From an uncultured Prevotellaceae bacterium (GTDB lineage: Bacteria > Bacteroidota > Bacteroidia > Bacteroidales > Muribaculaceae), in the NCBI GenBank assembly GCA_900318255.1, contig ONJX01000001.1, forward strand, positions 124,001 through 188,000: DNA of 64,000 bases, written 5' to 3'. The notes beneath the pieces are model-generated. The model searched no databases and was not told where the DNA came from. It worked only from the letters and a program-made list of their open reading frames with translations. A program made the translations under genes and the position numbers. This document shows, in pieces, positions 12,884 to 45,661 of this stretch. Position 1 is the first letter of the stretch. Each line of letters begins with the position of its first letter.

Positions 12884-12915
12884 CAAAAGTAGTGCAAGCC
12901 GAGAGAAAAACCAAA
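12884..12915 (-). promoter_or_regulatory. tsaD promoter
   Basis: On the minus strand TTTG (12912-12915) and TACTTTTG (12884-12891) are separated by 20 nt, matching the Bacteroidetes -33/-7 consensus. Transcription would begin near 12878, about 25 nt before the tsaD ATG. Confidence 0.8.
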
Positions 12916-12943
12916 TTTATTTGAGATTTTCCGAGGCGCCGCC
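12884..12943 (-). repeat. Promoter-bearing repeat, intact unit
   Basis: This 60-bp unit runs from CAAAAGTAGTGCAAGCCGAG through CCAAATTTATTTGAGATTTT to CCGAGGCGCCGCC. The same parts, in the same order, form a second unit at 12953-13080, where they are split by a 67-nt insertion. The intact unit carries the tsaD promoter. Confidence 0.8.
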
Positions 12944-12952
12944 CACTTTATC

Positions 12953-13080
12953 CAAAAGTAGTGCAAGCCGAGAGAAAAATGGGATTAAACGAGAGTAAAC
13001 AGGAGCTTGCTCTTTGTTTACCGAGCGTGAGCATTTTATTTAAAAACCAAATTTATTTGAGATTTTCCCGAGGCGCCGCC
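12953..13080 (-). repeat. Promoter-bearing repeat, interrupted unit
   Basis: The second copy of the 60-bp unit has its left part at 12953-12979 and its right part at 13047-13080. The 67 nt between them separate the -33 and -7 elements, so this copy's promoter should be dead. Confidence 0.8.
12980..13046. mobile_element. Small hairpin element inserted in a repeat (copy A)
   Basis: These 67 nt interrupt a repeat whose uninterrupted sister at 12884-12943 acts as the empty site. AAAAA is present on both sides of the insert, as a short target duplication might be. The core 12979-13039 aligns without gaps to 44302-44362: 47 of 61 positions match, and 12 of the 14 differences fall in the arms of a 12-bp hairpin (12995-13006 with 13009-13021). 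Four arm pairs differ by compensatory changes. The flanks GATTAA-CGAGA and CGAGCGTGAGCATTTTAT are conserved. It is non-coding and REP/MITE-like in behaviour. Confidence 0.7.
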
Positions 13081-13102
13081 TGTTTTGTAACCGCATTAGG
13101 TC

Positions 13103-43668: not shown

Positions 43669-44151
43669 TTAGTTGTCATGCATTTGTTTTAGTTGCTCAC
43701 GGATTCGCACCAGGCGCACTCCCACGGCCTTGGTGCTGATGCCCACGATGGCGGCAATGTCGTCGTAGCTCATGTTCTCGAGCCACAACAGCACGATGGC
43801 GCGGTCGAAGGGCTGCAAGCGGCTGATGCGCTGGTGCAGGAGCTTGGTTTGCCGGTTCTCCACGTTGTCATCGTCGAGGAAGTCGCGGTCGATGGTGAGC
43901 GGCACTGTGTCGAGGCGTTTTTTCTTCTTGCGGTCGCTGGTGATGCAGGTGTTGAGGGCTATGCGCCACACCCAGGTGCCCATGTTGCTGCGCCCCTCAA
44001 ACTTGTCGAGGCCATTCCACAAGTTGATGAGCGTCTCCTGAAACAGGTCCTCCACCTCGTCGTGCTCTTTCGAGAACATGTAGCACACCGAGTAGATTGT
44101 GCTCTTATACTCCAGCAGGAGTTGCCTGAAATTGGATTCGGTTTTTTCCAT
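43669..44151 (-). CDS. ECF-type RNA polymerase sigma factor
   Basis: A 160-aa sigma-70 family factor with region 2 (YSVCYMFSKEHDEVEDLFQE and LINLWNGLDKFEGRSN) and region 4 (LQPFDRAIVLLWLENMSYDD followed by IAAIVGISTKAVGVRLVRIR). I use ATG 44151 (MEKTESNFRQ); the frame can be extended to 44181. It leads an operon with a membrane protein and an M50 protease. The linker has a KKKKR block. Targets are unknown. Confidence 0.92.
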   Translation of the reverse strand: MEKTESNFRQLLLEYKSTIYSVCYMFSKEHDEVEDLFQETLINLWNGLDKFEGRSNMGTWVWRIALNTCITSDRKKKKRLDTVPLTIDRDFLDDDNVENRQTKLLHQRISRLQPFDRAIVLLWLENMSYDDIAAIVGISTKAVGVRLVRIREQLKQMHDN

Positions 44152-44281
44152 TTTCTTTTTCGTTACATCTGTTAGACGCAATAAAAACTCAAAAACTACA
44201 ATAAAAACTGTTTTTTTGATGTTTTTTCTATAAAAACGAGGTGTGGGCTCACATTATTTCTTGTATTATGGGAAAAATCAG

Positions 44282-44289
44282 TATCTTTG
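44282..44289 (+). promoter_or_regulatory. -7 box of the L,D-transpeptidase operon
   Basis: TATCTTTG, with CTTG about 18 nt upstream. The hairpin element (copy B) lies between this box and the ATG at 44389, so it is in the leader. Confidence 0.6.
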
Positions 44290-44301
44290 TAAGCTAAAAA
44301 A

Positions 44302-44362
44302 ATGCGATTAAGCGAGACAAAGCATAAGCTTGCTTGGTGCCTTGCGAGCGTGAGCATTTTAT
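44302..44362. mobile_element. Small hairpin element (copy B)
   Basis: This 61-nt core aligns without gaps to 12979-13039. Hairpin arms are 44318-44329 and 44332-44344 around TT; flanks GATTAA-CGAGA and CGAGCGTGAGCATTTTAT match copy A. Here it sits in the 5' leader of an L,D-transpeptidase gene, whereas copy A lies upstream of the tsaD promoter in the opposite sense relative to its gene, which argues against a fixed cis-regulatory job. Confidence 0.7.
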
Positions 44363-44388
44363 GCAAATAATGCAAAAACAAAAATAAC

Positions 44389-45021
44389 ATGATCAAGAAA
44401 CTATTGACATTAATGGTGCTTGGGTGCTTGGCATGGGGAGCACAAGCGCAAATTGTTGACGCTGCCACTGCCACCAAGGCGACCGACAAGACAGTGTTTT
44501 ATCAAACACCACAAATCGAGAAAAAGAACACCTTTATCGTGGTCTCAAAGGCCGAGCTTAGGCTATATGTCTATGGCACTGTGGGAGGCGACACCGTGCT
44601 CATGGCAAAGTTCCCTGCCTGCTTGAGCCGCAACAAGGGGCAGAAACAGCGCAAGGGCGACAACAAGACTCCTGAGTGCAAACAGTCCAAGCCGTTCCAC
44701 ATCCAGGCCATTCGCAACTCCTCGGCTTGGACCCACAACTTCCACGACGGACGTGGCAACATCAAGGCCTACGGAGCTTGGTTCCTGAGCCTTTACACCC
44801 CAGGGCACACTGGCATAGGCATCCACGGCAGCACCAACAACGAGAGCTCGGTGCCTGGCCGCCAGAGCGAGGGTTGCATACGCCTGCGCGACCCCGACAT
44901 CATCATCCTCAAGGAGCAATATGCCTACCTCAAAATGCCCGTTATCATCAAGAACGAGACCGAGGGGCCATGGGGCTGGGAACTCAAGGCTCACGCTAAA
45001 GCTAAGCCCATAAAAAAATAA
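44389..45021 (+). CDS. L,D-transpeptidase (YkuD), exported
   Basis: A 210-aa exported enzyme that makes or edits L,D cross-links in peptidoglycan or links proteins to it. Signal peptide MIKKLLTLMVLGCLAWGAQA; the YkuD domain (about 45-185) has GIGIHGSTN with His145 and SEGCIRL with catalytic Cys163. Tandem with a lipoprotein paralogue 10 nt downstream. Confidence 0.92.
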   Translation: MIKKLLTLMVLGCLAWGAQAQIVDAATATKATDKTVFYQTPQIEKKNTFIVVSKAELRLYVYGTVGGDTVLMAKFPACLSRNKGQKQRKGDNKTPECKQSKPFHIQAIRNSSAWTHNFHDGRGNIKAYGAWFLSLYTPGHTGIGIHGSTNNESSVPGRQSEGCIRLRDPDIIILKEQYAYLKMPVIIKNETEGPWGWELKAHAKAKPIKK

Positions 45022-45031
45022 AGCTAGCGAT

Positions 45032-45661
45032 ATGAAGAAATTACTCACATTGACATTAACGGCTCTTATTCTCATTGGCTTTACCGCCTGTGGCGGCAAG
45101 AAAGACAACGACACCGAGAAAACATCGGTCAAGAAAGAGAAAAAAGAGGCCTACAAGGACATCTACAAGGGCGACTACGACAAGAGCAAGACCTTTATTG
45201 TCATCTCCAAGAAAGACCTGCTGCTCACCGTCTATGCCCCCGTCAAGGGCGACACCGTGCCTGTGGCGCAGTTCCCAGTGTGCCTGAGCCTTAACAAGGG
45301 CCAGAAGCAGAAACCAGGCGACATGCGCACCCCCGAGAGCGAGCCTGGCGAGCCCTTCGTCATCGACGCCATCAAGCCTGCTAAGGACTGGACTCACGAC
45401 TTTGGCGACGGACGCGGCGCCATCCTAGCCTATGGCGACTGGTTCCTGCGCCTGAAGACTCCGGGGCACAATGGCATAGGCATCCATGGCAGCACCAATA
45501 ACGACGAGTCGGTGCCTGGTCGTGCCAGTGAGGGCTGCATACGCCTGCATGACCCCGACATCATCACCCTCAAGGAGCAGTATGCCCGAGTGGGAATGCC
45601 AGTAATCATCAAGCAAGAAGACCAGGGACTCAAGTCCTTTGAGAGAGCAGTAAAGCAGTAA
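45032..45661 (+). CDS. L,D-transpeptidase (YkuD), lipoprotein form
   Basis: A 209-aa paralogue of the preceding gene with a lipoprotein signal (MKKLLTLTLTALILIGFTAC), so it should be membrane-anchored, unlike its neighbour. GIGIHGSTN and SEGCIRLHDPD hold the catalytic His and Cys. A charged Lys/Glu linker (KKEKKEAYKD) separates anchor and domain. Its last codons merge into an AGCAGTAA repeat. Confidence 0.92.
   Translation: MKKLLTLTLTALILIGFTACGGKKDNDTEKTSVKKEKKEAYKDIYKGDYDKSKTFIVISKKDLLLTVYAPVKGDTVPVAQFPVCLSLNKGQKQKPGDMRTPESEPGEPFVIDAIKPAKDWTHDFGDGRGAILAYGDWFLRLKTPGHNGIGIHGSTNNDESVPGRASEGCIRLHDPDIITLKEQYARVGMPVIIKQEDQGLKSFERAVKQ

Follow-up and report, generated by a model that had tools for sequence, protein, structure and literature searches.

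The window analysed here is a 64,000-nucleotide stretch (positions 124001-188000 of contig C29) of source genome G000, a 3.15 Mb Bacteroidales genome in 58 contigs. Within it, two repeats, A1 (12885-12953, + strand, as for all repeats, element copies and motifs located below) and A2, lie head to tail; they agree letter for letter as far as GCCGAGAG-AAAAA and once more from AAAAA-CCAAATTT onwards, and A2 holds exactly 67 nt more than A1. The insert, copy 1 of a hairpin element, lies in the 5' arm of A2 and separates its 5' part (12954-12974) from its 3' part (13042-13092, ending ..TGTTTTGTAACC), while the intact sister A1 represents the empty site. Five shared A's allow the limits of the insert to shift, such that 12975-13041 through 12980-13046 are equally valid; copy 1 matches the element's covariance model at 81.9 bits. 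The sister comparison bears out the preliminary description, in which a 67-nt insert was said to split one tandem repeat beside an intact sister. Copy 1 has an outer helix with the 5' strand AAAATGG (12976-12982; the usual form is AAAATGC) and the 3' strand GCATTTT (13031-13037), a conserved internal loop GATTAA (12983-12988) facing GTGA, and two facing CGAG strands (12990-12993 and 13022-13025) that would form tandem G.A pairs.

The element core recurs in the window, as had been described, in copy 2 (44298-44363), and the motif CGAGCGTGAGCATTTTAT occurs twice with up to 3 mismatches (0.08 expected by chance). Copy 2 stands at the 5' leader of an L,D-transpeptidase gene, 8 nt downstream of TATCTTTG (44282-44289), which fits, as a sequence match, TAnnTTTG, the Bacteroidetes -7 promoter box consensus. 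The site is filled in the orthologous locus of relative G001 (84% identity) and lacks the element in G068 at the same position behind TATCTTTG (sides 83 and 81% identical, junction not base-exact). Two neighbouring genes with L,D-transpeptidase (YkuD) domains occupy 44389-45661, and the gene of an ECF-type sigma factor (43669-44181) diverges from them. Comparison of the two copies as 66-nt units gives 15 differences. The double changes reported earlier are present (pair 21-47 GC to CG, 22-46 TA to AT, 25-43 AT to GC, 29-38 GC to AT), as is the G-T/T-G swap (pair 28-40, GT to TG), and at arm pair 24-44 one of the copies has a mismatch (AT to A.C). The flanks, which had been viewed as almost fixed, partly consist of outer helix strands that covary in other copies.

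The fold runs from an outer 7-bp helix of free sequence through the internal loop GATTAA/GTGA and a small helix (CGAG opposite CGAG or CGAA, then a bulged residue, usually A) to an inner hairpin, likewise free in sequence, whose loop is of the CNNG type. The outer helix, AAAATGC/GCATTTT, was overlooked at first and joins the inner hairpin already known. CGAG facing CGAG would place tandem sheared G.A pairs between C-G and G-C, and GA steps also stand opposite each other in the predicted folds of L036, L052 and repeat A1. What is invariant is the unpaired or non-canonical part, namely GATTAA, GTGA and the two facing GA steps. Repeat A, which starts with AAA and ends with ATCC, is built alike from an outer helix, a CCGAG/CCGAGG module and a variable hairpin, but its loops are TGCAA and GCxGC (TGCAA/GCCGC in A1). 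Its outer helix is paired at a mean of 5.3 of 6 positions against 4.1 shuffled (maximum 5.2), a result that is only suggestive because the sample comprised just nine copies, with six different outer strands. A K-turn was rejected on its mismatched bulge pattern.

In an alignment of 107 distinct copies, pairing holds in 93.1% of cells (72.8% when shuffled; 98.1% in the outer helix), which excludes the possibility that further copies break the pairing, and double-change cells number 420 against 125 shuffled and at most 91 slid. That alignment had been fitted to a covariance model, and the covariation test was therefore rerun on 18 copies picked for differing outer strands and aligned with MAFFT alone. 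The score was 0.740 (0.253 shuffled, at most 0.178 slid), and RNAalifold, run without any structural input, recovered almost the identical fold, in which 16 of 19 pairs have compensated changes. A core-only regular expression blind to the outer strands found 191 copies, 187 of them with at least 5 of 7 Watson-Crick outer pairs, and 25 distinct outer strands are paired at a mean of 6.2 of 7 positions, against 3.8 shuffled (maximum 4.64). In thermodynamic folding, single copies do just modestly better than shuffles. Selection for structure, as first proposed, is well supported, with both helices covarying and the unguided fold in agreement; the folded shape seems to be the thing preserved, because the stems change sequence yet stay paired.

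The element is common in its clade, where it is conserved by shape. An exact-pattern search of its own genome yields six copies, a 13-mer search with one mismatch 36 sites (about half of them family members, judged by their surroundings) and covariance model R1 24 copies, so that a family of only two members is excluded. R1 matches occur in 33 of 61 genomes (the own genome and 60 relatives), with up to 36 per genome, and in 13 of 295 genomes and 12 of 184 genera of an order-wide sample (E up to 1e-4). The named genomes with the element are mainly rumen MAGs labelled Muribaculaceae, Prevotellaceae or Bacteroidales, and the 66-67 nt hairpin recurs across gut and rumen Bacteroidales. Copies are single or in head-to-tail arrays with a spacing of 66-67 bp. 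About seven copies in the own genome have the inner hairpin swapped for a GTAG-tagged REP, GTAGGGACAAGGCGTGCCTTGTCCG; at L048 (G000:C36:10577-10809), one of three tandem units has the plain hairpin and two have the GTAG-tagged REP instead, and a REP appears to have spread there inside another repeat. Searches of plasmid and phage collections and of the Rfam 15 covariance models gave no match to the element, and the open-access literature no earlier description matching it.

Filled and empty sites lend good support to the mobility first proposed, and the element has been mobile in the past. Clean sister comparisons are provided by A1/A2 in the window and by G000:C41 and G030:C29, both beside an intact sister; an insertion in G001:C80 has the same junction as these last two. 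At another place within an A-type repeat, a different subfamily is inserted (L086, sister differing by one base beside the junction), and at L108 an element lies inverted within a gene-end copy; the junctions of both are consistent with insertion. In another family of the order (L385), excising the 67 nt AAAATTGC..TTTATCT restores an open frame carrying a DUF772 transposase domain (E 1.3e-13). At all exact insertions the element starts with an A-run, ends with ATNN or near it and is followed by A, and the shared bases are A's alone, 2-5 of them; each of the two positions after ATNN is A in 76 of 81 copies. Insertions are precise and lie ahead of AA(A); any target duplication is confined to the 2-5 shared A's, which could reflect an AA(A) duplication of 2-5 bp such as a DDE transposase might make. 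Copies are found singly, in tandem, nested in other repeats, within genes and at gene ends.

Gene-end copies have outer strands such as AAGTYGT, AACGAGT and AGTTCGT; every one lies in the sense direction and runs across the stop codon. The ORFs they close have tails reading YNLMGQ..GIYIHNGKKVVIK, which by eye resemble the C-terminal domain of type IX secretion; Pfam called no such domain in two tails tested. The unit supplies K-x-V-I-K-stop, with V-I-K-stop encoded when GT closes the outer strand and the core is GATTAAGTGA, and a displaced second end usually follows soon past the unit's 3' strand (LNVVIK-stop, NMIVR-stop, KILVK-stop). Codon changes in the outer strand are compensated on the untranslated side (KVV/ACGACTT, KRV/ACGAGTT, KFV/ACGAACT), where the KRV group matches with its first positions offset and copy L317 is weaker (4 of 7 paired). 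Among 30 gene tails fetched from two genomes, 7 have the unit, and most others have a native GKKVVIK-like end with other sequence after it, in many cases a hairpin like that of a terminator. Native tails can read GTTGTGATTAAGTGA, which makes core and gene end near-identical there. Copying of the outer strand from the target was rejected for the KRVIK gene ends, where the displaced original end, NMIVR, differs.

Other subfamilies and settings were also seen. Subfamily AAGTTAC abuts CAAAGTTAC, the reverse of the TAnnTTTG -7 box, in tandem units; AAGTTAC-type copies at reversed TAnnTTTG occur in tandem units of about 75-82 bp at L303, L304, L308, L310, L314 and L340. A promoter rule was rejected for the AAAATGC type, in which TAnnTTTG lies within 45 nt upstream of just about 12 of about 123 copies. 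At L406 (G251:C13) the upstream gene's stop lies within GGTTAA of an element spanning an operon junction, and the next gene's start apparently lies in the 3' strand. At L400 (G235:C40) an ORF, by eye similar to a type I restriction specificity subunit, apparently continues in frame through an element close to its start. An element of AAATCTGC type follows about codon 20 of an ORF fragment at L078, L081, L082, L320, L322, L323, L326 and L329; together with this short repeated fragment, MIDIQQLTSLISAFRVETE, it forms a compound repeat with a degenerate downstream frame in many species. Bypass or splicing of gene-internal copies was rejected on those degenerate frames, and a small peptide (ATG CGA TTA AGC..) on between-copy changes that are not synonymous.

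The element is short, multicopy, mostly intergenic, palindromic, foldable as a single strand and non-autonomous, in keeping with the term REP-like used in the preliminary description as far as its way of working goes; it does not qualify as a REP itself, since it lacks the GTAG/CGTC tag and the RAYT linkage. No GTAG, GTGG or CGTC tag was found at the element's foot (feet are AAAATGC, AAGTTAC, AACGAGT and others), and the GTAG-REP is present solely as the inner-hairpin replacement in some copies. Y1_Tnp matches number nine in the own genome and 25 in nine relatives (34 loci, 10 genomes). The suggested check for a linked Y1/RAYT transposase gave no linkage: the R1 scan placed no intact copy beside any of the 34 loci, and its sole match there, at a distance of about 370 nt from the L009 gene, is degraded. 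Clustering of the ORFs near copies (fetched loci, flanks of about 1.5 kb) gave no recurrent transposase family. Three Y1 genes of the own genome (L008, L009 and L010, on C16, C50 and C57) have the motifs NHIH and YIHxNP, like those that PMC6006769 tabulates for subclass 2.6; on their flanks lie tandem repeats of their own, among them GGGGACGGTTCTCTTTTAGTTCA, GGGGTCGGTTCTTTTTGTCCG and GGGGTCTGACCCCGATGTTTCA.

Discussion

We favour, at a probability of roughly 55%, the reading that this 66-75 nt unit of Bacteroidales is a mobile element, non-autonomous and recognised through its folded shape. Its conservation reverses that of sequence-recognised repeats, the helices being free and the internal loops fixed. 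A trans-acting protein (most probably a single-strand Y1/HUH transposase of the IS200/REP type) would read the fixed loops, cut at AA(A) and join the single-stranded unit there, and the helices could drift freely while paired because the transposase reads those loops. A single-strand mechanism is suggested by the hairpin together with the A-flank rule and the absence of any clear duplication, and we infer that the moving enzyme is a transposase. At secreted-protein genes, a V-I-K-stop unit may replace the gene's end without damage, and such harmless replacement would explain its persistence there. A more far-reaching proposal, which we hold as tentative, is that the element forms a separate mobile class read by internal-loop shape alone, with drifting helices, a core that acts as a V-I-K-stop coding mimic re-creating the C-termini of secreted proteins, and sister subfamilies at -7 boxes.

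The foremost alternative, that the element is a MITE moved by a DDE transposase, with AAAATGC/GCATTTT as terminal inverted repeats and AA(A) as a 2-3 bp target duplication, is unlikely. The element is indeed multicopy and non-autonomous, with complementary ends and A-rich junctions containing 2-5 ambiguous A's; however, its terminal strands vary by subfamily (25 seen) while the internal loops are fixed, the reverse of a usual MITE. The inner hairpin, for which a MITE has no use, covaries equally strongly, and the genes around the copies include no recurring transposase family.

Somewhat less likely still is a cis-acting structured RNA, an mRNA end or leader element under selection whose copies spread otherwise. 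Fixed loops between covarying helices would suit an RNA, as would the gene-end copies, all sense and spanning the stop with a downstream strand that compensates codon changes, the L406 copy, which bridges one gene's stop and the following start within an operon, and T.G intermediates at pair 16. Against it, copies of the main AAAATGC type have no orientation bias relative to neighbouring genes, no Rfam model matches, and G.U is scarce: paired cells comprise 1951 Watson-Crick, 59 G.T and 82 A.C, or 59 G.T in 2010 standard-paired cells. With the irregular pairs 24-85 and 28-80 left out, G.T exceeds A.C about 2-fold (46 vs 24), an excess that leans weakly to the + strand and leaves the choice between DNA and RNA undecided. 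Restoration of pairing by mutation (quasipalindrome correction via template switching) instead of selection is improbable, for it would fit near-perfect Watson-Crick arms with few wobble pairs but leaves the fixed unpaired loops and fixed GA steps between variable helices unexplained. The order of junctions does not fit an integron attC, which was rejected.

The element is a kind of short non-autonomous hairpin repeat. REP elements tagged with GTAG/CGTC, which are moved by RAYT (TnpA_REP) transposases (PMC3733652, PMC6006769), are likewise short, multicopy, mostly intergenic hairpins that occur in tandem, fold as single strands and have no autonomous coding; in contrast to them, the element is larger (66-75 nt), has no GTAG/CGTC foot, combines free helices with fixed loops and was not found flanking RAYT genes. 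Nearest among published systems are Bacteroidetes subclass 2.6 TnpA_REP genes, which are flanked by atypical structures without GT[AG]G (PMC6006769). Those structures are also Bacteroidetes hairpins with copies elsewhere in the genome; the L008-L010 genes have other tandem repeats, not the element, and the comparison made here is with the published description of the structures. MITEs such as that of Porphyromonas gingivalis (PMC4596501) are similarly non-autonomous and intergenic with inverted ends, whereas the element has ends that are not fixed, no established target duplication and a shape-conserved interior. The end hairpins of IS200/IS605 are recognised as single strands, beside a short target and without target duplication, and the element would resemble them in this: a target AA(A) beside it fits the insertions examined, with A-run ambiguity at the junctions. 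Unlike IS200/IS605, the element has no transposase and is one hairpin unit, where those have a pair of ends enclosing a gene.

Sequence is what defines most short bacterial repeats, whereas this one is defined by structure, and sequence-based repeat finders would therefore miss or split it. Its 25 outer-strand types, together with several filled and empty sites, form a clean natural data set on how shape might be read by a single-strand transposase. The gene-end copies indicate that a repeat can harmlessly end a gene by carrying codons equivalent to the gene's last ones.
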